Below are positions 1 through 8,696 of a stretch of 64,000 bases of DNA, in pieces. The position numbers were made by a program, and so were the translations under genes. The stretch is from positions 1 through 64,000 of the forward strand of contig DATIGE010000064.1 in NCBI GenBank assembly GCA_035454885.1, in the 5' to 3' direction. The stretch's first letter is position 1. The number at the start of each line of letters is the position of its first letter. The notes beneath the pieces are model-generated. The model saw nothing but the letters and a program-made list of their open reading frames with translations. It searched no databases and was not told the origin of the DNA. This DNA comes from a bacterium. Lineage in GTDB: Bacteria; UBA10199; JACPAL01; GCA-016699445.

Positions 1-774
1 GCCATTCACTACGAGGATCACGGCCCCAGGGAGGCGGGGCCCCTTGTCCTCATCCACGCCTTTCCCCTCAACCTCACCATGTGGAACGCTCAAATTCAGG
101 CCCTTTCCGCGGAACGCCGTGTGATTGCCTACGACCTCCGAGGGCATGGGGAAAGCGATGTCGGCGATGGGCAGTACACGATCGAGCTCTTTGTGGACGA
201 CCTGATCGCCTTGCTGGATCATCTGCGGATCGACACGACGGCGGTCTGCGGCCTCTCCCTCGGGGGCTACATCGCCCTGCGCGCCCTTGAGAGGCATCCG
301 GAGCGTTTTAACGCCCTTGTTCTGTGCGACACGCGAAGCGAGGCGGATTCCGACGAAGCGAAGATCAAGCGCTCGGCGGGCCTAAGACTTCTCAAAGAGA
401 AAGGGGTTCCGTCGTTTGCGGAGGAATTCGTCAAACCGGCCTTTGCGCCGGAGACGTTCAAGACAAATCCCGAGATCGTCCACACGACCAAGGGGATGAT
501 CCTGAAGAATTCGCCCCTGGGAATCGGGGGCGCCCTGCTGGCCTTGGCTTCCCGGACCGATACGACGGAATCGTTGAAACGAATCAACATTCCGACCCTC
601 GTCCTGGTCGGCGAGAAGGATCAGATCACCCCGCCCTCAGCGGCTCTCTCCCTGAAAGAGAAAATACCGAACGCGCAGATGCACGTCATTCCGACCGCGG
701 GGCATTTAAGCAATTTGGAAAATCCAGCGGAATTTAATCAAAGGCTCGCCGCATTCTGTAGGGAAATCCCCTAG
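1..774 (+). CDS. alpha/beta hydrolase, 5' end outside window
   Basis: The reading frame is open from base 1, so the gene begins before the window; 257 codons are visible. It shows an alpha/beta-hydrolase fold: an oxyanion-loop stretch LIHAFP near the visible start, the nucleophile elbow GLSLGGY (Ser at window residue 86), the acid in VGEKDQIT and the catalytic His in AGHLSNLENP near the C-terminus. The layout resembles 3-oxoadipate enol-lactonase and related carboxylesterases, but substrate cannot be told from sequence, and no other beta-ketoadipate gene is nearby. Its TAG stop lies inside the operator of the next transcription unit, so the downstream promoter overlaps the end of this gene. 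Confidence 0.85.
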   Translation, partial: AIHYEDHGPREAGPLVLIHAFPLNLTMWNAQIQALSAERRVIAYDLRGHGESDVGDGQYTIELFVDDLIALLDHLRIDTTAVCGLSLGGYIALRALERHPERFNALVLCDTRSEADSDEAKIKRSAGLRLLKEKGVPSFAEEFVKPAFAPETFKTNPEIVHTTKGMILKNSPLGIGGALLALASRTDTTESLKRINIPTLVLVGEKDQITPPSAALSLKEKIPNAQMHVIPTAGHLSNLENPAEFNQRLAAFCREIP

Positions 775-825
775 TCGAAAATCCAGTTTCCCCCGATTGT
801 AGGCCCTTTCCATCTCCTGTAGCCT
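759..825 (+). promoter_or_regulatory. composite stress-regulon promoter, copy 1 (EF-hand operon)
   Basis: Operator TAGGGAAATCCCCTAGTC at 759-776, second block ending GATTGT at 800, -35 TTGTAG at 797-802, 17-bp spacer, -10 TAGCCT at 820-825. The operator-to-minus-35 offset is 38 bp, as in all seven copies. A 7-bp inverted repeat (CTCATTT/AAATGAG, 824-846) follows in the leader and ends just before the ribosome-binding site, so it could fold and mask translation. The regulator is unknown. Confidence 0.75.
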
Positions 826-857
826 CATTTTTGAATCACAAATGAGGGAGGCGCATT

Positions 858-1595
858 ATGCTTTTGTCTAAACCCATCATGTCCCTTTTTCTGTTCGCCT
901 TGATCCTGTCCCTCTCAGCGGGGATGGCCCATGCGCAAAAGAAAAAAGAAAACATGAAATACCGGGGCATGGATCGGAATAACGACGGCGTGATCACGCG
1001 CGAGGAATGGCGAGGGGACAGCGACAAGTCTTTTGACAACCAGGATTGGAATGGTGACGGTGTCCTCTCGGGTGATGAGGTGAGGCCGGGTGCGCGTCGC
1101 CCTGAGAAGGCAGATCCATTTCGCGCCTTGGATCGCAACAACAATGGCGTGATTTCCGCCAACGAATGGACGGGTTCGACGCAGGACTTTGACCGTCTGG
1201 ATCGGGATCATAATGGCAACTTAAGCGTTGAGGAGTTCCATCAACGCTCGGGGATGGATCAATTTGGCGAGCTCGATCACAATAACAACGGGGTCATATC
1301 ACGGGATGAATGGCATAACACCAGCCGGTCATTTGATGGACTGGATCTCAACCGCGACGGACAATTAAGCCGTGACGAATTTAATAATCGGGAGCAGCGC
1401 CCCGTTTCCGTCTTTGGGGAACTCGATCAAAACAACGACGGGAGGATCTCACGCAGCGAATGGCGCAGCACGACCGTGGGCTTTGACCGTCTGGACACCA
1501 ATGGGGACGACTTCTTGAGCAAGAATGAATTTAACGGCCGTCAAACCAGTAACCTTGTTGAGCAAATCTTTCAGGAGATCTTCAGACCGCGATAA
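858..1595 (+). CDS. secreted protein with eight EF-hand loops
   Basis: A 245-residue protein with a signal peptide (hydrophobic residues 8-25, cleavage likely after AHA) followed by eight EF-hand-like calcium loops of the form DxNxDGxIxxxEW or DxNxDGxLxxxEF. The loops start near residues 39, 63, 92, 115, 140, 163, 190 and 213. They alternate strictly between loops ending in Trp and loops ending in Phe or Val, giving four loop pairs and suggesting tandem duplication of a pair. It is predicted periplasmic or exported; calcium binding is inferred from intact acidic positions. ATG at 858 follows GAGGGAGG. It heads a unit that may continue into the lipoprotein 13 bp downstream. Confidence 0.8.
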   Translation: MLLSKPIMSLFLFALILSLSAGMAHAQKKKENMKYRGMDRNNDGVITREEWRGDSDKSFDNQDWNGDGVLSGDEVRPGARRPEKADPFRALDRNNNGVISANEWTGSTQDFDRLDRDHNGNLSVEEFHQRSGMDQFGELDHNNNGVISRDEWHNTSRSFDGLDLNRDGQLSRDEFNNREQRPVSVFGELDQNNDGRISRSEWRSTTVGFDRLDTNGDDFLSKNEFNGRQTSNLVEQIFQEIFRPR

Positions 1596-1608
1596 AGAGG
1601 TGACGTCT

Positions 1609-2745
1609 ATGAAATGGAACAAACTTGTCAAATCTCTCGTTGTGACGCCGCTCGCGGCGTTCTTTCTATGGGGCTGTGGTAGCAGCGGAGGCAACGGAAC
1701 CCTGTCCGTCGGCCTGACGGACGCATCGACGGACCAGTATCAGGCCGTCTACGTCACCGTCAAAGCCGTCGAGGTCCACATGTCCGGAGATGCAGAGGAC
1801 AGCTGGGAGACGGTCGGGACTCCGAACAAGACCTACGACCTCTTGCAACTCGTCAACGGCGTGCGCGAGACGCTGGGGATCGCGGATCTGAAAGCCGGCC
1901 ATTACACCCAGATGAGACTGATCTTGGGAGACACACCGGAAGGCTCCATCAACATCTTAAGCCTCGCCCATCCGTTCGCTAATTACGTGATCGACCTGGA
2001 TGGGAATGCCCATGAGCTGAAAGTCCCCAGCGGCATGCAGACGGGAATCAAGATCGTCCATGGCTTTGACATCAACGAAAACTCGACGACGGAGCTTGTC
2101 CTCGACTTTAACGCCGGCGCCTCGGTCGTGATCGCGGGCAACAGCGGCAAGTACCTGCTCAAGCCCACGATCAAGGTGTTGGATACCCGGAAAGCCTCGA
2201 TCATCAGCGGAGAGGTCACACAGTCCCCGGATGACAGCGGGCTGGCTGGCACGACGGTCTCGGCCCAGATCTTCGACGGCGCAGCGGCCGATGCGAAAGA
2301 CCGAGTGACCGTGCAAGCCGCCACGATATCGGACGATGACGGCCGCTTTTCGCTCTTCCTGTCGCCCGGCACCTATAATCTGGTCTTTTACAAGCAGGGC
2401 TTCCAGGCCTTCGTGACCAAGATCACGGTCGCGGCCGGCGAGACCGCCACTCAGGACGCTGCACTCGGTACCGCCGCGACCGGAACGCTCTCGGGAACCA
2501 CAAGCTTCAGCGGCGGCGATCCAGATGCATTCATCACCTTGAGCTTCCGCCAGGACCAGACGATCGAAGGCAATGCGGAACAAATCGAGATCACATCGCT
2601 CAACGTCGCGAATGGAGGTAGCTATTCGGCCACGCTGCCTGAAGGCGCTGTGACTATTGTCGGATCGTCTTTCGGCCAGGAGACAGACACAGAGATCTCG
2701 GCGGTCATCGCGGGCTCGAACACGACCATGGATATGAGCCTGTAA
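1609..2745 (+). CDS. DUF4382-type lipoprotein with carboxypeptidase-regulatory-like domain
   Basis: The start was set at ATG 1609 because an AGAGG precedes it and the protein then opens with a lipoprotein signal (lipobox L20-W-G-C23). Residues about 30-200 match the DUF4382 pattern seen in bacterial lipoproteins (GTLSVGLTDA, a VYVTVKAVEVH strand, LLQLVNG, LKAGHYTQMRL, and a KIVHGFDI strand). Residues about 210-300 look like a carboxypeptidase-regulatory Ig-like domain (ISGEVTQ, GRFSLFLSPGTYNLVFYKQGF). It is likely outer-membrane or periplasmic-face anchored; function unknown. It lies 13 bp after the EF-hand gene and is probably co-transcribed with it. Confidence 0.75.
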   Translation: MKWNKLVKSLVVTPLAAFFLWGCGSSGGNGTLSVGLTDASTDQYQAVYVTVKAVEVHMSGDAEDSWETVGTPNKTYDLLQLVNGVRETLGIADLKAGHYTQMRLILGDTPEGSINILSLAHPFANYVIDLDGNAHELKVPSGMQTGIKIVHGFDINENSTTELVLDFNAGASVVIAGNSGKYLLKPTIKVLDTRKASIISGEVTQSPDDSGLAGTTVSAQIFDGAAADAKDRVTVQAATISDDDGRFSLFLSPGTYNLVFYKQGFQAFVTKITVAAGETATQDAALGTAATGTLSGTTSFSGGDPDAFITLSFRQDQTIEGNAEQIEITSLNVANGGSYSATLPEGAVTIVGSSFGQETDTEISAVIAGSNTTMDMSL

Positions 2746-2769
2746 TCGAATGAAAAGGGAGGGTGTCAA

Positions 2770-3009
2770 ATGAAGAAAATTCTTTTTCTGGCCGTTCTTT
2801 TTGCGGCCATACCGTTCCTGGGCCTATCGGAGGAATCGGGAATAAAAGTTCAGACCCCGGAAGGGAGTATTGAGGTCAAGACGGGCACCCCCGCGCCCCC
2901 TCCCGACCCTCAGGTGATCGTCGTCCGTCCCTCCAAGACGACCGTCAATCAGCCGCAGGGTTCCGGCGGATGCGGTTGTAGCCTGGATTCCGGGGCAGCT
3001 TGCAAATAG
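2770..3009 (+). CDS. small secreted hypothetical protein
   Basis: A 79-residue protein with a signal peptide (residues 1-20). The mature part has a beta-like stretch (IKVQTPEGSIEVKTG), a proline-rich segment APPPDPQ, and a C-terminal Gly/Cys-rich tail with three cysteines (GGCGCSLDSGAAC). ATG 2770 follows AGGGAGGG. It is 24 bp after the DUF4382 gene in the same direction and probably belongs to that operon. The Cys-rich tail could hold disulfides or a metal; I do not recognise the family. Confidence 0.6.
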   Translation: MKKILFLAVLFAAIPFLGLSEESGIKVQTPEGSIEVKTGTPAPPPDPQVIVVRPSKTTVNQPQGSGGCGCSLDSGAACK

Positions 3010-3061
3010 CCTGGCATCCGGGCGCCCGCGTCGTGGGCAGGTGATTTCGAAGGAAAGGGCC

Positions 3062-3508
3062 ATGAAAAGGTTCAAGTCATTTCAGTTGTTGGGATTCGCG
3101 GCCCTGGCGCTCGGCTTGATCGTTTGGTCCGCCGCCGATGCGCGCAACGGGCGCTCGAAGAACGCGTTGAACTCGGCTTCCGCTAACTTCATCAGTGCGC
3201 GCCTTGTCGACAAGACAAAGAACGCGGCCAACAGGACTGCGACCGTTGAGGTGACGGTCCGGGGCGTCCGCCTCGTGGATCCCGCGTTCGCATCCCAGGT
3301 TCCGGGCTCGATCCAAGGGCATCTCCTCTTCCAGTTGGACGGGGGGCCGATCATCGCCACCCCGACCTCCAGACTGAGCTTCCGAGAGCTGGCTCCGGGG
3401 GAGCACACGATTTCGGTCAACCTGGCCGACGACCATCACATGCCGATGGGGCTGCCGGTTCTGCTAACGGTGAGTGTTCCGGCCCCCAAGACTGTATTAG
3501 CGTACTGA
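3062..3508 (+). CDS. secreted hypothetical protein, DUF4399-like C-terminus
   Basis: A 148-residue protein with an N-terminal signal (hydrophobic residues 7-21). ATG 3062 is preferred over the in-frame ATG at 3041 because GGAAAGGG sits just upstream of it. The C-terminal half, with LSFRELAPGEHTISVNLADD followed by HHMPMG, has the look of Ig-like secreted domains such as DUF4399, in which a His-bearing strand ends the fold; that likeness is by eye only. It is the last gene before the second composite promoter and is likely the end of the EF-hand operon. Confidence 0.6.
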   Translation: MKRFKSFQLLGFAALALGLIVWSAADARNGRSKNALNSASANFISARLVDKTKNAANRTATVEVTVRGVRLVDPAFASQVPGSIQGHLLFQLDGGPIIATPTSRLSFRELAPGEHTISVNLADDHHMPMGLPVLLTVSVPAPKTVLAY

Positions 3509-3518
3509 GCTCCGTCCG

Positions 3519-3585
3519 TAGGGAAATCCCCCAGTCAAAAATCCTGTTTGCCCCGATTGTTCTTCCCTTGCTCCTCCCATAATCT
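3519..3585 (+). promoter_or_regulatory. composite stress-regulon promoter, copy 2 (DUF1328 unit)
   Basis: Operator TAGGGAAATCCCCCAGTC at 3519-3536, second block with one change (TTTGCCCC), -35 TTGTTC at 3557-3562, 17-bp spacer, -10 TAATCT at 3580-3585. It starts 10 bp after the preceding stop codon and drives the DUF1328 gene at 3620. Confidence 0.78.
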
Positions 3586-3619
3586 CATCGCATCAATCAA
3601 ACAAAGGGAGGAGGGGGTT

Positions 3620-3790
3620 ATGCTTTACTGGGCGTTAGTGTTTTTCCTATTCGCGGTGGTCGCCGCGGTATTGGGATTCACCGGAATTGCGGCCAGCGCC
3701 GCCTACATAGCGAAGATTCTTTTCGTCGTCTTCGTCGTGTTGTTCATTGTCTCGCTTGTATTTCCGAGATTCAGACGGCCAGCGGCCTGA
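3620..3790 (+). CDS. DUF1328 family membrane peptide, copy A
   Basis: A 56-residue protein, almost all hydrophobic, with two predicted membrane helices separated by the small-residue turn [11 protein letters not shown], ending in the basic tail FRRPAA. This is the layout of the DUF1328 (YtjA-like) family often found with CsbD and other general-stress peptides. The start at ATG 3620 is fixed by GGGAGGAGGGGG just upstream and by the equal-length paralogue at 7418. Inner-membrane location is inferred. Its promoter is the conserved composite type. Confidence 0.85.
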
Positions 3791-3841
3791 GGCGAATTGG
3801 TGAAGTAAGAACGATCACGAATAAACCAAGGAGAAACGAAC

Positions 3842-4036
3842 ATGGACCAACAAAAACAACCCACGCCCCCCGGCACCAAGACCGGGGCGGAAGTGAAGCC
3901 CTCGCAACCACAACAGCAAAAGGGCAACAGCCCGCAAGAGCAAGGAATCAAGCAGGCAAGCCCCACGAGCGGCAATCAGCCGCCTCTTCCAAAAGAGGCG
4001 ACGGCACCGACAGGCGCAGCTCCGAAGGCGCTCTAG
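3842..4036 (+). CDS. short Gln/Pro-rich hypothetical protein
   Basis: A 64-residue hydrophilic, low-complexity protein rich in Gln, Pro, Lys and Ser, with no signal peptide and no hydrophobic core, so probably disordered. The start ATG 3842 follows AAGGAG at 3829-3834. It lies 51 bp after the DUF1328 gene, probably on the same transcript. The composition resembles hydrophilin-like stress proteins, but I do not recognise a family. Ribosome-binding site and reading-frame bias make it likely to be real. Confidence 0.55.
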   Translation: MDQQKQPTPPGTKTGAEVKPSQPQQQKGNSPQEQGIKQASPTSGNQPPLPKEATAPTGAAPKAL

Positions 4037-4060
4037 GTTTTCAACACCCCGCGAGTGCGT

Positions 4061-4080
4061 CCTGAACAATTATGTTCGGG
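4061..4080 (+). other. hairpin in intergenic region
   Basis: CCTGAACA and TGTTCGGG form an 8-bp stem (one G-T pair) around the loop ATTA. No T-run follows, so it is not a canonical terminator. It could be an operator or an mRNA-processing structure between the 64-residue gene and the secreted protein at 4125. Confidence 0.4.
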
Positions 4081-4124
4081 TCGCTCTCCGCGGGGCACCT
4101 GCTCAATGATAAGGAGAGATTCCT

Positions 4125-4661
4125 ATGGGTAGAAAAAGATGGACAGGGATGCTGGTCTTGGCTGGAGTTGCTCTGCTTTTGTCGAACGGCACCCTCCTTG
4201 CCGACAATCCGTTGGTGATGAAGGGAAACGCATGGACTTATAATAATGAGATCATGGGAGAGAAGCCGAGCGAGCAGTGGGACACGCAGCAAACCAATGA
4301 GATGGCAAGGCCGGTCAAGTGGGTTCTTCACAAGTCGGGCGGCAATCCAGTCATCTGGTTGATCTACGATGATGCCGTTTCCAAGTGGACAACGGCCAGC
4401 ATCGCCTCGGATCTTCAGAAGGCCTACAAGTCACGGGGAATCAACCCCGATGCCGTGCAGCAGATGACGATCAACAACAATGACGTCTACATCATCGGCG
4501 GCACCGATCCGGTCAAGAATGTCCGTTACAACACGGCGGTGTTCTGGAGAGTGGGAACCAAGCGGGCTTATAACATCGAACTGTCGGTTCCGACGAATGA
4601 ATTCAGCTCTTATGAGCCTGCCTACAAGGGGATGATACAGACGGTCAAATTGTTACCGTAG
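4125..4661 (+). CDS. secreted hypothetical protein
   Basis: A 178-residue protein with a clear signal peptide (hydrophobic residues 9-20, cleavage near LLA-DNP). The mature domain is mixed alpha/beta with a repeated Trp/aromatic pattern (AWTYNNE, WVLHKSG, WLIYDDAVSKWTT, VFWRVG) and no cysteine. I do not recognise the family. ATG 4125 follows AAGGAGAG. The gene ends 15 bp before a strong terminator. It may share the DUF1328 promoter or have its own; no composite operator lies directly upstream. Confidence 0.65.
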   Translation: MGRKRWTGMLVLAGVALLLSNGTLLADNPLVMKGNAWTYNNEIMGEKPSEQWDTQQTNEMARPVKWVLHKSGGNPVIWLIYDDAVSKWTTASIASDLQKAYKSRGINPDAVQQMTINNNDVYIIGGTDPVKNVRYNTAVFWRVGTKRAYNIELSVPTNEFSSYEPAYKGMIQTVKLLP

Positions 4662-4675
4662 ACTTCTACGGTTCC

Positions 4676-4716
4676 CCCGCCTCTCTCCCCACCGGGAGAG
4701 AGGCGGGTTTTATTTT
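4676..4716 (+). terminator. Rho-independent terminator
   Basis: A perfect 14-bp GC-rich stem (4676-4689 with 4694-4707), loop CACC, followed by TTTTATTTT. It closes the plus-strand unit and also separates it from the minus-strand CsbD gene that converges on it. Confidence 0.92.
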
Positions 4717-4752
4717 GAAAGGTTGCGGACGCCCGGCTTCGGGACCATCTTC

Positions 4753-4911
4753 TTACTTGCCTTGCAGAGCCTTCCTGACCTTTTCGATGCCGGATTTTAT
4801 CTTCCCAGCCGCCTTGTCGATCCGGCCTTCGTTTGCCAGCTTCTTGTTTCCGGTCAACTCGCCGACCGCCTTTTTGATGCTCCCTTTGGCTTTATCAATC
4901 TCGCCCGCCAT
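4753..4911 (-). CDS. CsbD family stress protein, copy A
   Basis: Encoded on the minus strand and only 52 residues long. The translation begins MAGEIDKAKGSIKKAVGELT and ends KVRKALQGK, matching the CsbD family of small Lys-rich helical general-stress proteins. AAGGAG lies 7-8 bp upstream of the start. It is the same length as, and differs at only a few positions from, the plus-strand copy at 6388. The leader carries the reversed composite promoter at 5042-4975. In other bacteria CsbD genes belong to general-stress regulons; the biochemical role is unknown. Confidence 0.9.
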   Translation of the reverse strand: MAGEIDKAKGSIKKAVGELTGNKKLANEGRIDKAAGKIKSGIEKVRKALQGK

Positions 4912-4974
4912 AGTGGTTCTCCTTTTGATTTTCTTTCAAGCGGTGAGGGAGATTCCCCTTTACCGCAAGAAATA

Positions 4975-5042
4975 TTTTTAGAACGGAATCGACGGGACGC
5001 ACAATCGGGGGAAACAGGATTATTGACTGGGGGATTCCCCTA
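4975..5042 (-). promoter_or_regulatory. composite stress-regulon promoter, copy 3 (minus strand, CsbD)
   Basis: Reading the minus strand: operator TAGGGGAATCCCCCAGTC from 5042, the canonical second block, -35 TTGTGC at 5004-4999, 18-bp spacer, -10 TAAAAA at 4980-4975. The only copy on this strand, it points at the minus-strand CsbD gene, which supports function in a fixed orientation relative to the gene. Confidence 0.78.
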
Positions 5043-5081
5043 GTCGCCCGGAGTCAAAAGTTTCCATCTTCCCTTGTTAAG

Positions 5082-6254
5082 ATGCTCAAGACTGATATTC
5101 TCGCCAAGGTGCTCCACCACATTTATTTCGTCCCGGGGCTCTTCGGCTTTGCGCGCCTCGCCTCGTATGACTACTTCGCGCACGTCAGGAGCGCGCTGCA
5201 GGCGCGGTTTCGGGACGCCGGCCAGCAAATCGAGACTCACGCCGTGGACGTATTGCCCACGGCCTCGGTGCGCCGGCGGGCGGCGAAGCTCGCGGCGCTG
5301 ATTGACCGGACATCCGGAGGCAAAGGGCCGATTCACCTCGTGGGGCACTCGACGGGCGGGCTGGACGCCCGCCTGGCGGCATCGCCGAGCACGACGCTCC
5401 CGATACCGGCGCGAGTGATGCGCTGGCTCCCGCGGCTGCGAAGCGTTACGACGATGAATACCCCGCACTACGGCACACCGCTGGCAAGCTTCCTGGTGAC
5501 CTCGAACGGCCAGCGCTTGCTCTCCGCGCTGTCGGCGTTCACGTTGGGCGGGCTCTCCCTTGGTGCGCACCCCCTCGGCGCCGCGGGCGCACTCATCGGG
5601 CTCATCGGGCGCGGCGACGACGCGCTCGGGATCAAGCTTCGGATCCTGGACAAATCGGTCGGCCTGCTGCTGGGACTGGTCAAAGACGCTCGACGCCCGG
5701 ATGTGCTCGCCTACATCAACGCCGTCAAGGAGGATCAGGGTTCGATGCTTCAGATCAGCCCGGAGGCCATGGACCTCACGGTGGCCGGCTTCCGGGACCG
5801 TCCGGGCGTCGCCTACCAGTCGACCGCCTCGATGGCGCCGACACCTTCGCCCGGGAAGTGGGTCCGGACGCTTGGGCATCCGTGGCGGGCGGCTTCCTTG
5901 GCGCTGTTCACCGCGCTCCACGGCATTACGTCGCGTCATGACGATCGCTACCCATGCGCCGCCGCGCGGGCCGGCCGGCGGACGGAGGTGATGCTCGCGC
6001 GGGCGCTCGGCTTCGTGCCCGATCGGAGCGCCAACGACGGCGTCGTCCCCATTCGCTCGCAGCTCTGGGGGACTCTGGTGTGGGCGGGGCTCGGAGATCA
6101 CCTGGATGTCCTGGGGCATTATCGCGATGACCGGAAGGGGAGGCTCGCGACGTTGCGCCACCGCGATTGGCTGACCAGCGGCTCGTCGTTCGACAGCACG
6201 AACTTTGGCGCGCTGATGGACGCGGTTACGAACGGGATGCTGAAGTCCGTCTAA
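5082..6254 (+). CDS. lipase-like alpha/beta hydrolase
   Basis: A 390-residue protein with an alpha/beta-hydrolase N-terminal half: FVPGLFGFARL oxyanion strand, then HLVGHSTGG with Ser90 as nucleophile, and a late NDGVVPIRS segment plus a GDHLDVLGHY region carrying the likely acid and His. It resembles triacylglycerol-lipase or acyltransferase-type esterases. No signal peptide is evident. No Shine-Dalgarno precedes ATG 5082 and there is no composite promoter on this strand, although it sits in the middle of the stress island. Its GC content and codon use are visibly higher than those of its neighbours, which suggests separate origin. Confidence 0.75.
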   Translation: MLKTDILAKVLHHIYFVPGLFGFARLASYDYFAHVRSALQARFRDAGQQIETHAVDVLPTASVRRRAAKLAALIDRTSGGKGPIHLVGHSTGGLDARLAASPSTTLPIPARVMRWLPRLRSVTTMNTPHYGTPLASFLVTSNGQRLLSALSAFTLGGLSLGAHPLGAAGALIGLIGRGDDALGIKLRILDKSVGLLLGLVKDARRPDVLAYINAVKEDQGSMLQISPEAMDLTVAGFRDRPGVAYQSTASMAPTPSPGKWVRTLGHPWRAASLALFTALHGITSRHDDRYPCAAARAGRRTEVMLARALGFVPDRSANDGVVPIRSQLWGTLVWAGLGDHLDVLGHYRDDRKGRLATLRHRDWLTSGSSFDSTNFGALMDAVTNGMLKSV

Positions 6255-6256
6255 AC

Positions 6257-6323
6257 TAGGGAAATCCCCCAGTCAATAATCCTGTTTCCCCTGATTGTTC
6301 CACCTTTCTTTCTCTTGTAGATT
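6257..6323 (+). promoter_or_regulatory. composite stress-regulon promoter, copy 4 (CsbD)
   Basis: Operator TAGGGAAATCCCCCAGTC at 6257-6274, second block CCTGTTTCCCCTGATTGT, -35 TTGTTC at 6295-6300, 17-bp spacer, -10 TAGATT at 6318-6323. It begins 2 bp after the lipase stop and precedes the plus-strand CsbD gene by a 60-bp leader. Confidence 0.78.
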
Positions 6324-6387
6324 CCACTCCAGAGATACAGAGATATTCTGTAAAGTTCGGGGCAGACAAACAAAAGGGAGAACCATC

Positions 6388-6546
6388 ATGGCGGGCGAAA
6401 TAGACAAAGCCAAAGGCAACATCAAGCAGGTGGTCGGCGAGTTGACCGGAAACAAAAAGCTGAAAAACGAAGGCACGATCGACAAGGCGGCTGGGAAGAT
6501 AAAATCCGGCGTCGATAAGGTTAAGAAGGCGTTGCAGGGCAAGTAA
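6388..6546 (+). CDS. CsbD family stress protein, copy B
   Basis: A 52-residue Lys-rich helical protein beginning MAGEIDKAKGNIKQVVGELT and ending KVKKALQGK, clearly CsbD. ATG 6388 follows AAGGGAG. It is a near-duplicate of the minus-strand CsbD at 4753-4911; the two flank the lipase gene and each has its own composite promoter. A hairpin with a T-run at 6607-6629 probably ends the transcript. Confidence 0.9.
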   Translation: MAGEIDKAKGNIKQVVGELTGNKKLKNEGTIDKAAGKIKSGVDKVKKALQGK

Positions 6547-6606
6547 GAAGGGATCCCGCCGGGCAAAAGCGTCAGCGGCTTCGTGCAATTCCGGAAGGCG
6601 GGTGAA

Positions 6607-6629
6607 CTGAGCCCCCTCAGGTTTTTTTT
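6607..6629 (+). terminator. probable terminator after CsbD
   Basis: CTGAG-CCCC-CTCAG forms a short 5-bp stem followed by G and eight T. The stem is short but the T-run is strong, and it sits between the CsbD stop and the next composite promoter. Confidence 0.6.
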
Positions 6630-6666
6630 CAAGGTCGCAAAGAGTGCCTTCCGGTTCGAATTTCAA

Positions 6667-6733
6667 TAGGAAAATCCCCCAATCAAAAACCCTGTTTTCC
6701 CCGATTGTTCGTCCTTTATTACTCTTGTAATCT
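6667..6733 (+). promoter_or_regulatory. composite stress-regulon promoter, copy 5 (BON operon)
   Basis: Operator TAGGAAAATCCCCCAATC at 6667-6684 (two changes from consensus), second block CCTGTTTTCCCCGATTGT, -35 TTGTTC at 6705-6710, 17-bp spacer, -10 TAATCT at 6728-6733. The predicted transcript start near 6740 leaves no room for a ribosome site before ATG 6748, which argues for the BON start at 6766. Confidence 0.75.
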
Positions 6734-6765
6734 CATGACGTCATTCAATGAAGTCAGGACCCATT

Positions 6766-7170
6766 ATGAGCGATGGTGTCGGAATTCTGAAGCTTTTAAG
6801 AATAGCCGGTTGCCTTGGAATTTTGGCGGCAATAGCCTGGTTCGTCTCGGACAACCAGGCTTATGCCGGTTCACGAAGAGTTTATGCCCAGATCATTCCC
6901 CAGGATGTCTCCCAGAGCACCGAGATTCCCAAGGGGGACGTGTGGCAAACCGAATCCGACAGGATGGTGACGGCTAAAATCCGTGAGGCCTTGGAGGAGG
7001 ATGTCTCGTTGTTCGAGAAGGTCAGGAACATAAGGATCATCACCATCAATGGAGAGGTAACGCTTCGCGGCCAGGTGAATACCGGCAGCGAACGCCAACG
7101 CATCGAAGAAAAAGCCCGCAAACCGATCGGGGTCGGGCGGGTTATCAACCAAATCGATGTTTCGCCTTAG
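6766..7170 (+). CDS. BON domain protein
   Basis: A 134-residue protein with an N-terminal hydrophobic segment (signal peptide or anchor, GCLGILAAIAWFV) and a single BON domain in the second half: TAKIREALEED, NIRIITINGEVTLRGQV, and IEEKARKPIGVGRVINQID, matching the BON pattern of OsmY-like periplasmic stress proteins. BON domains are thought to bind phospholipid or envelope surfaces. The alternative in-frame ATG at 6748 lies almost at the predicted transcript start and lacks a ribosome site, so 6766 (preceded by CAGGA) is chosen. It heads the unit with DUF3309 and DUF1328. Confidence 0.85.
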   Translation: MSDGVGILKLLRIAGCLGILAAIAWFVSDNQAYAGSRRVYAQIIPQDVSQSTEIPKGDVWQTESDRMVTAKIREALEEDVSLFEKVRNIRIITINGEVTLRGQVNTGSERQRIEEKARKPIGVGRVINQIDVSP

Positions 7171-7218
7171 TTCCGATTTTAACAGCAGGGTCGCCCCTGC
7201 GAACGGAATGGAGACAAT

Positions 7219-7380
7219 ATGTGGACGATAATCCTGGTTGTCGTGTTGGTGCTGGCTCTCGGCGGCGGTGGAGGTTATTACGGTTCTCGCCGCTGGGGTT
7301 TCGGAGGCGGTGCAGGCATCGGGTTGGGGACCATATTGGTGATTCTGCTCATCGCCTACCTGTTGGGCGTGTTTCGCTGA
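7219..7380 (+). CDS. DUF3309-like membrane peptide
   Basis: A 53-residue peptide: one hydrophobic helix (TIILVVVLVLAL), a Gly/Tyr/Arg-rich linker (GGGGGYYGSRRWGFGGG) and a second helix (TILVILLIAYLLG) ending in FR. This two-helix layout with an aromatic glycine linker is that of the DUF3309 family, which is often found next to CsbD/BON stress genes. ATG 7219 follows AATGGAG. It lies 48 bp after the BON gene; a small hairpin (GCAGGG/CCCTGC, 7185-7200) sits in the gap without a T-run. Confidence 0.8.
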   Translation: MWTIILVVVLVLALGGGGGYYGSRRWGFGGGAGIGLGTILVILLIAYLLGVFR

Positions 7381-7417
7381 CGGTAGCGAAGACCGGCGAG
7401 CAAAGAGAGAAAGAGTC

Positions 7418-7588
7418 ATGCTTCACTGGGTGTTAATACTTTTCCTATCCGCGGTCCTCTCCGCGGTGTTGGGATTAACCGGAATCGCGGCCGGCGCCGC
7501 ATACGTGGCGAAGATCCTTTTCGTCGTCTTCTCCCTGTTGTTCCTCATCTCGCTGCTGTTTCCGGCATTCAGACGGCCGGCGGGTTGA
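7418..7588 (+). CDS. DUF1328 family membrane peptide, copy B
   Basis: A 56-residue paralogue of the peptide at 3620, same length and same two-helix design, beginning MLHWVLILFLSAVLSAVLG and ending FRRPAG. ATG 7418 follows AGAGAAAGAG. It is the third gene of the BON unit, 37 bp after DUF3309, and has no composite promoter of its own, unlike copy A. Co-expression with BON and DUF3309 is inferred. Confidence 0.85.
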   Translation: MLHWVLILFLSAVLSAVLGLTGIAAGAAYVAKILFVVFSLLFLISLLFPAFRRPAG

Positions 7589-7621
7589 GGCGCCGGTCTC
7601 CTATTTTTCCCCATCGGTTCC

Positions 7622-7688
7622 TGGGAAAATCCTCCAGCCGAAAATCCTGTTTCCCCCGATTGTCCGCCCGAGCCCGCTCCTGTACGCT
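7622..7688 (+). promoter_or_regulatory. composite stress-regulon promoter, copy 6 (48-residue orphan)
   Basis: The most diverged operator, TGGGAAAATCCTCCAGCC at 7622-7639, with a canonical second block, -35 TTGTCC at 7660-7665, 17-bp spacer and -10 TACGCT at 7683-7688. The inferred transcript start (about 7695) falls right at the GGAGG of the 48-residue gene, so the leader would be very short. Confidence 0.72.
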
Positions 7689-7707
7689 GGTCCATGGAGG
7701 GTTTCTT

Positions 7708-7854
7708 ATGATCGACGGCGTCATGCAGCTAAGGCAAGTGCTTCTCCATCCCTGGGGCGTCGTTTGGTCCTATGGGCTTTTGAAGTTCTGCGAAATCCTG
7801 GTGAAGGGCGTCTCCAAGCGGCACTACCAGTTTCTTCAGATCGTCTTTTCCTAG
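7708..7854 (+). CDS. 48-residue orphan under the stress promoter
   Basis: A short protein beginning MIDGVMQLRQVLLHPW and ending KRHYQFLQIVFS. It is amphipathic, with an aromatic-rich centre (GVVWSYGLLKFCEILVKGV) that could form one membrane-associated helix. ATG 7708 follows GGAGG with a 7-nt spacer. It has its own composite promoter upstream, and the next composite promoter starts 13 bp after its stop, so it is a monocistronic member of the regulon. I recognise no family. The promoter context is the main support that it is real. Confidence 0.65.
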   Translation: MIDGVMQLRQVLLHPWGVVWSYGLLKFCEILVKGVSKRHYQFLQIVFS

Positions 7855-7866
7855 GCCGCTTGCCGC

Positions 7867-7933
7867 TAGGGAAATCCCCCAGTCAACAACCGTGTTTCCC
7901 CCGATTGTCCGCCCCCTCCGGTTCTTCTAGACT
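7867..7933 (+). promoter_or_regulatory. composite stress-regulon promoter, copy 7 (OmpA)
   Basis: Operator TAGGGAAATCCCCCAGTC at 7867-7884, second block CGTGTTTCCCCCGATTGT, -35 TTGTCC at 7905-7910, 17-bp spacer, -10 TAGACT at 7928-7933. It precedes the OmpA-domain gene by a 40-bp leader. Confidence 0.78.
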
Positions 7934-7973: not shown

Positions 7974-8696
7974 ATGTCAAAGAATAACCGTCTCACCATA
8001 TGGGGGATCGCCGTTTTGGGGGCGTTTTTAGCCTCAAGCGCGCTCCTCGCGGAAAAAACGGGGCCTCTGGTGGCTCCGACGAATCCCGATTCGCCTGCCT
8101 GCGTAACCAACGATCAGGCCGGAACGAAGTGTCCGAACTGGAACGCGATTCCCGAAAAGTTCCATCCGGATGCCTGCATCTCCGACGCCAAGCAGGCCGG
8201 CAAAGTGAAGTGCGCCCGTTGGTATTCCTACGGAACACCCACGGAAGTGGTCATCCGGACCAACCTGATCCACTTCGAATTCGACAAGTCGCGCATTTTG
8301 GCATCTTCGTATCCGGTCCTGAATCAGATCGTCGCGACGATCCAAGGCGCGAACGTTCAGCATGTCACGATCGAGGGGCATACGGATAGCAAGGGATCGG
8401 ACGCCTACAACATGTCGCTTTCCGATCGGCGCGCCGCGTCGGTGAGGGAGTATCTCAGCGACCACGGGATTCAGTCGAGCGAGATGAACTCCGTCGGAAA
8501 GGGTGAGAGTCAACCGGTCGCCGCCAACGAAATCAACGGCCGGGATAACCCTGCAGGCCGTGACTTGAACCGCCGTGTGGAATTCCGTCTTCAGCTCGCA
8601 TCGGGTTCCAAGGCGAAGATGACGAAGGGCGACTCGGGCCCGACCTTCCCGGATTCCAAGAGGCAGGCCGGGTCGGGAGAAGTCTCCAGTCGATGA
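7974..8696 (+). CDS. OmpA family peptidoglycan-binding protein
   Basis: A 240-residue protein. ATG 7974 follows GGAGG and starts a signal peptide (hydrophobic residues 8-25). Residues about 43-80 hold four cysteines in two pairs, PACVTNDQAGTKCP and DACISDAKQAGKVKC, a likely disulfide-bonded region. Residues about 90-207 are an OmpA C-terminal domain: IHFEFDKS, GHTDSKGSDAYNMSLSDRRA with the diaminopimelate-binding Asp/Arg pattern, and NRRVEFRL. The tail is basic and disordered. It is predicted to anchor to peptidoglycan in the periplasm. It ends the stress island and faces a hairpin shared with the convergent gene. Confidence 0.88.
   Translation: MSKNNRLTIWGIAVLGAFLASSALLAEKTGPLVAPTNPDSPACVTNDQAGTKCPNWNAIPEKFHPDACISDAKQAGKVKCARWYSYGTPTEVVIRTNLIHFEFDKSRILASSYPVLNQIVATIQGANVQHVTIEGHTDSKGSDAYNMSLSDRRAASVREYLSDHGIQSSEMNSVGKGESQPVAANEINGRDNPAGRDLNRRVEFRLQLASGSKAKMTKGDSGPTFPDSKRQAGSGEVSSR

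Follow-up and report, generated by a model that had tools for sequence, protein, structure and literature searches.

A composite promoter family of the phylum UBA10199 with a NarL/FixJ response regulator as its probable activator

Seven promoter copies and the genes behind them

The window analyzed here is a stretch of 64,000 nucleotides from an uncultured bacterium of the GTDB phylum UBA10199 (contig DATIGE010000064.1 of assembly GCA_035454885.1, positions 1 to 64,000). Between positions 759 and 7933, it carries seven copies of one composite element, an operator followed by a second block, a -35 and a -10, each copy standing before a transcription unit (Table 1). Similar elements recur in related genomes, in several of which they border the gene of a NarL/FixJ-type response regulator (RR), the probable activator of this promoter family.

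The first-pass annotation had reported seven copies, and all of them were recovered in place. A 42-column matrix built from the copies themselves was scored on both strands of the window (~128,000 positions); the copies reach 61.5–68.9 bits, against 8.6 bits for the runner-up position. With at most three mismatches, the operator pattern has six matches in the window (0.14 expected from shuffles) and the second-block pattern seven (0.07 expected). No copy had been seen in the other 56 kb, and this extends to the whole genome to which the window belongs (G000; 82 contigs, 2.76 Mb), in which neither the pattern nor the model finds an eighth. The reversed control pattern has no match in G000, and the matches to site 1 alone that lie outside the cluster carry three mismatches, the level of the control. 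A scatter of the element through the genome regardless of gene type, which would speak against a regulon, is therefore not seen.

The geometry described as fixed is kept with one exception. The TTGT starts 38 bp past the operator start in all seven copies, and a TAnnnT starts at element position 62, after a spacer of 17 bp from the -35 hexamer, in six. In the minus-strand copy, a TAAAAA begins one base later (spacer of 18 bp), which is TA-rich rather than strictly TAnnnT. The distance from element start to start codon is 81–131 bp in the units of the window. Base 1 of the window is also base 1 of its contig (C64), which opens inside a hydrolase gene; the stop codon of this gene overlaps the first element, and the DNA further upstream is absent from the contig.

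The names proposed for the genes (EF-hand, DUF1328, two CsbD, BON, DUF3309, DUF1328 and OmpA) were confirmed by Pfam. The 48-residue protein, previously described as an orphan, has a homologue in the relative G027 (L046:398-544), which is 64.5% identical, has the same start context and directly precedes an element; hence, judged from this comparison, it is a real small gene. Two junctions of the window, the hydrolase stop codon over the element and the 48-residue gene before the element, are thus kept in G027, and the two loci are therefore homologous. A GC-rich gene for a lipase-like hydrolase of 390 residues (5082–6254) has no element itself but is flanked on both sides by CsbD units that are driven by one; no homologue of it was found in the related loci read.

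Table 1. Promoter copies and genes in the first part of the window.
Feature	Position	Strand	Remarks
Element copy 1	759..800	+	Site 1 759-776; site 2/-35 block 783-800; -10 TAGCCT 820-825; drives EF-hand unit
Element copy 2	3519..3560	+	-10 TAATCT 3580-3585; pattern, matrix and model
Element copy 3	5001..5042	-	-10 region TAAAAA 4975-4980, spacer 18; pattern, matrix and model
Element copy 4	6257..6298	+	-10 TAGATT 6318-6323; pattern, matrix and model
Element copy 5	6667..6708	+	-10 TAATCT 6728-6733; pattern, matrix and model
Element copy 6	7622..7663	+	Most divergent copy; -10 TACGCT 7683-7688; pattern, matrix and model
Element copy 7	7867..7908	+	-10 TAGACT 7928-7933; pattern, matrix and model
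Alpha/beta hydrolase	1..774	+	Truncated by contig start; 78.5% identical to G027 hydrolase also ending on an element
EF-hand repeat protein, 245 aa	858..1595	+	Pfam
DUF4382/carboxypeptidase-regulatory-like lipoprotein	1609..2745	+	Next gene of EF-hand unit; Pfam
DUF1328 small membrane protein	3620..3790	+	Pfam
CsbD-like stress protein	4753..4911	-	Pfam
CsbD-like stress protein	6388..6546	+	Pfam
BON-domain protein	6748..7170	+	Pfam
DUF3309 small membrane protein	7219..7380	+	Pfam
DUF1328 small membrane protein	7418..7588	+	Pfam
48-residue protein	7708..7854	+	64.5% identity to G027 homologue
OmpA-family C-terminal domain protein	7974..8696	+	Pfam

Anatomy and spread of the element

The distribution of the element was followed in the 46 genomes of the class; a search of the phylum returned the same 46. 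A sequence-only profile of the seven window copies has matches in 14 of these genomes, and a later one, drawn up from 51 copies, places the element in 13, with 1–23 copies each and the highest number in G039. One genome, G032, was dropped from the list, its weak match to the first profile (E 8e-4) having disappeared with the better model. Among 84,980 species genomes, the exact degenerate pattern matches only metagenome-assembled genomes named 'Deltaproteobacteria' or 'delta proteobacterium' and one stretch of Parabacteroides, which, at 12.8 bits, is treated as a chance match. The viral contigs searched gave no match. The spacing is fixed in the elements across the genomes of the phylum. By these sequence criteria, the element is not peculiar to the locus in the window and belongs to a phylum-wide promoter family.

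The family consensus reads TAGGGAAATCCCCCAGTC - AAAAAT - CCTGTTTCCCCCGATTGT - variable spacer - TAnnnT. Positions 1–18 hold ~25 bits of information and positions 25–42 ~24 bits; the spacer holds little, and a further rise is seen at the -10. A TAnnnT falls within range in 41 copies, in 32 of them at position 62. Site 1 (TAGGGAAATCCCCCA) has the consensus half-sites TRGGGRA-W-TCCCCYA, and its best palindromic position is centered at 8 (TAGGGAA-A-TCCCCCA), with arms of 7 bp that are on average 0.68 complementary. The palindrome is perfect in 2/51 copies and matches at 6/7 or better in 14/51, TGGGGGATTCCCCCA being an example of the near-perfect or perfect form. Beside the -35, the run of C repeats 22 bp later in a fixed register, with CCCCC blocks at 10–14 and 32–36 and TTGT at 39–42, and the conserved block CCCYGATTGT keeps a fixed spacing to the -10-like element. 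An ATG frame led by a Shine-Dalgarno sequence follows 66–200 bp downstream in 57 of 69 copies, against 11 in the mirror direction; hence, the orientation of the element is taken as that of a promoter.

The genes that stand behind the elements in the different genomes encode CsbD, DUF1328, DUF3309, OmpA, DUF883-like and PRC-barrel proteins, but, also, ice-binding domains with immunoglobulin-like repeats, a ferritin-like protein, a thiamine pyrophosphate (TPP) enzyme, a transaldolase and unknown secreted proteins. Strong CsbD matches are found in 10 of the 13 element-bearing genomes, compared with 2 of the other 33. Different genes follow the same element in G000 and G027. In three places, two elements stand back to back on opposite strands, overlapping or less than 120 bp apart (L045:6028-6150, L055:1149-1333 and L050:117-268).

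A NarL/FixJ response regulator as candidate activator

In two relatives, an element was first noticed before an RR with a LuxR-type helix-turn-helix (HTH) or before its kinase. The RR of G036 and of G039 consists of a receiver domain (Response_reg, PF00072) and a GerE HTH (PF00196), and the nearest solved relatives of the RR are VraR, DevR, DesR and NarL. The histidine kinase (HK) carries HisKA_3 and HATPase domains. Such a HisKA_3 kinase adjoins the RR in G031, G002, G039, G004, G014 and G012; in G036, its place is taken by a hybrid kinase.

An RR orthologue of at least 57% identity is present in 10 of the 13 genomes with elements and in none of the 33 others (class-wide search; Fisher 7e-8), and the co-occurrence persists in a within-family permutation (p = 1.5e-4). 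At 48% identity or above, the counts are 11/13 and 3/33, and for the kinase, at 47% or above, 7/13 and 0/33. Genomes possessing only paralogous NarL-type RRs (at most 43% identity) show no association (0/13 vs. 8/33).

The element is, moreover, physically linked to the regulator. It lies directly upstream of the RR gene or HK-RR operon in six genomes and directly downstream of the RR in four, as well as weakly (16.8 bits) in G004: the order is element-HK-RR-element in G039, G002 and G031, element-RR in G036, G035 and G027, and RR-element-DUF1328 in G012. By chance, an element would come to lie within 1.5 kb of any chosen locus with a probability of 0.1–1.5% in the individual genomes. In G036, G035, G002 and G001, the RR is the sole GerE-domain protein of the assembly. 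Where their sequences extend over the recognition helix, the close orthologues from genomes with elements agree on KTIESHYA(N/K)IK; the three close relatives lacking elements carry KTVE.H..HIK instead, and G001, with one element, has an intermediate helix.

These observations indicate that the NarL/FixJ RR, usually together with its HisKA_3 kinase, is probably the activator of the promoter family. The single activator postulated by the first-pass annotation is thus supported, although it is no longer unknown in kind.

Some peculiarities of the regulator loci were also recorded. A gene for a GAF-domain phosphoenolpyruvate phosphotransferase (PtsP-like, Pfam) lies near the RR in G027, G031 and G014 (L137:944-3175, L058:4304-6496 and L130:1767-3953), and a link between nitrogen phosphotransferase signaling and the regulon is possible. 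In G036, a second, truncated RR copy stands directly upstream of an element (L042:5106-5528; G036:C11, ~57.1–57.5 kb). The RR of G002 (L060:6515-7203) is apparently split over two overlapping frames by a frameshift, either real or a sequencing error. G012 has 33 GerE-domain matches, compared with 0–4 in most genomes of the phylum.

Proposed mechanism, alternatives and known systems

In the mechanism proposed, an RR dimer would bind head to head on the inverted heptad of site 1, at about -66, and a second dimer would occupy, two helical turns (22 bp) further downstream, at about -44, the half-conserved site that adjoins the -35 (TTGT). RNA polymerase would then start from the TAnnnT -10 after 17 bp. 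This two-dimer activation is suggested by the combination of the 22-bp spacing, the upstream inverted heptad, the weaker site at the -35 and the sigma-70-like -10, which is the geometry of BvgA promoters. The regulator would be the RR encoded beside the elements in relatives, usually with the HisKA_3 kinase, and, as its own operon is preceded or followed by an element, it is probably autoregulated. Its predicted targets are small proteins of the envelope and of the general stress response (CsbD, DUF1328, DUF3309, BON, OmpA and EF-hand) and, in relatives, also metabolic enzymes, a ferritin-like protein and ice-binding adhesins. The signal named earlier, envelope or osmotic stress, is conjectural; the ice-binding, ferritin-like, transaldolase and TPP enzyme genes would agree just as well with a wider response to stress or to stationary phase.

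The whole explanation, a two-component-controlled sigma-70-type promoter with the NarL/FixJ RR as activator and the RR of G000 in an assembly gap, is given a probability of roughly 0.8. Several points weigh against it. Site 2 is well conserved in its right half only, and the 57% identity cut-off was chosen after the data had been seen. Furthermore, no GerE/LuxR-HTH protein was found anywhere in the assembly of G000, estimated to be 100% complete, and no match to the RR or the kinase at the cut-offs used; G045, with three elements, likewise has no GerE-domain protein and no match to the RR or the kinase.

From the last two results, it could be argued that the promoter is real and activator-dependent, but that in the species of G000 and in G045 another, non-LuxR-type protein has taken over, the ancestral RR being lost or replaced. 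This is unlikely. The operator of G000 is the most canonical of all, the recognition helix does not vary among genomes that combine elements with a close RR orthologue, and a replacement protein of identical specificity is hardly to be expected. Contig breaks often coincide with RR genes: 5 of 10 relatives have the gene truncated at, or bordering on, the end of a contig, where 1.2 would be expected (p = 0.003). Such a break has removed the HTH half of the RR in G027, the closest element-bearing relative, which retains just the first 103 residues. For these reasons, the RR of G000 is placed in an assembly gap at the contig end, a lost contig being favored over a lost gene; this is supported but not proven. 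The bin of G000 holds no contig overlapping the start of the window.

The strong block beside the -10-like element at fixed spacing could also be explained by an alternative sigma factor recognizing the promoter without a separate activator. This is very improbable, as the palindromic ~25 bits at roughly -55 to -75 lie beyond any sigma contact, the -10 is sigma-70-like, and the linkage to the RR and its co-occurrence with the elements would be left unexplained. There is slightly less room still for a dispersed mobile repeat (REP- or MITE-like, of the repetitive palindrome or miniature transposon kind) or a product of gene conversion without regulatory function. Such an origin would account for the clustered, near-identical copies of G000 and the many copies of some relatives, such as G039; however, conservation breaks off after position 42 and is not seen again before the -10, reading frames favor the promoter direction as described above, and copies persist between families with different flanks. 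A transcribed, riboswitch-like RNA leader, which the conserved block upstream of several operons might recall, was rejected as next to impossible: no Rfam match reaches the gathering score, and the block precedes its own -35/-10, hence lying outside the predicted transcript.

The idea of one composite promoter with one activator, governing a compact, undescribed regulon, is well supported by the fixed geometry across the phylum, the direction of the downstream frames and the lack of a literature match. In the literature searched, the motif was not found in a bacterial regulatory context, only unrelated papers being returned, several of them on NF-kB; among papers naming the phylum UBA10199, none is a regulation study by its title or abstract. 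The distribution is patchy and all-or-none: for the most part, a genome has RR, elements and CsbD as a set or lacks all three. This pattern, like the difference between G000 and G027 in the genes that the element precedes, would fit a conceivable, if doubtful, reading in which promoter, two-component system and stress genes form a portable, self-contained module, spread patchily between families of the phylum, which effectors join or leave by gain or loss of the composite promoter.

A probable activator, an operator and a promoter logic are hereby assigned, from sequence alone, to an undescribed stress regulon of an uncultured lineage, and the proposal can be tested in Escherichia coli with one RR gene and one reporter. 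It would place many CsbD, DUF1328, DUF3309 and ice-binding genes under shared control and give small unknown genes, like that of the 48-residue protein, a functional context. It also implies that a binned genome rated complete may be without the regulator of its own most conspicuous regulon.

The closest working analogy is BvgA, although it is not claimed that the RR is its orthologue. BvgA dimers bind head to head on inverted heptads, with centers 22 bp apart and the last abutting the -35; its high-affinity fha site in Bordetella is TAAGAAATTTCCTA (PMC7250471). The promoters described here resemble those of BvgA in the NarL-family RR, the inverted heptad (TAGGGAAATCCCCTA here, TAAGAAATTTCCTA for BvgA), the 22-bp spacing and the proximal site abutting the -35, here judged from sequence spacing alone. 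They differ in having two sites instead of three or six, GC-rich heptads and stress-protein targets; moreover, the kinase is in most cases a small HisKA_3 protein and not a hybrid of the BvgS type. VraR, DevR/DosR, DesR and NarL share the receiver and LuxR-type HTH over nearly the whole length of the RR, but the likeness is distant (~91–109 bits), and their operators and regulons are others. The Rcs system of enterobacteria, in which the NarL-family RR RcsB controls envelope and osmotic stress genes through a short palindrome, is similar in outline; however, no RcsC/RcsD/RcsA relay was seen in the loci read, and the site sequence and tandem geometry differ. The general stress regulons of RpoS or PhyR-EcfG have overlapping outputs (CsbD, BON, OmpA-like and DUF1328), whereas control here is apparently exerted through a dedicated RR operator and not a sigma-specific promoter. 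Taken against these systems, what is new appears to be the regulon and not the mechanism, control by a NarL-family two-component system being well known.

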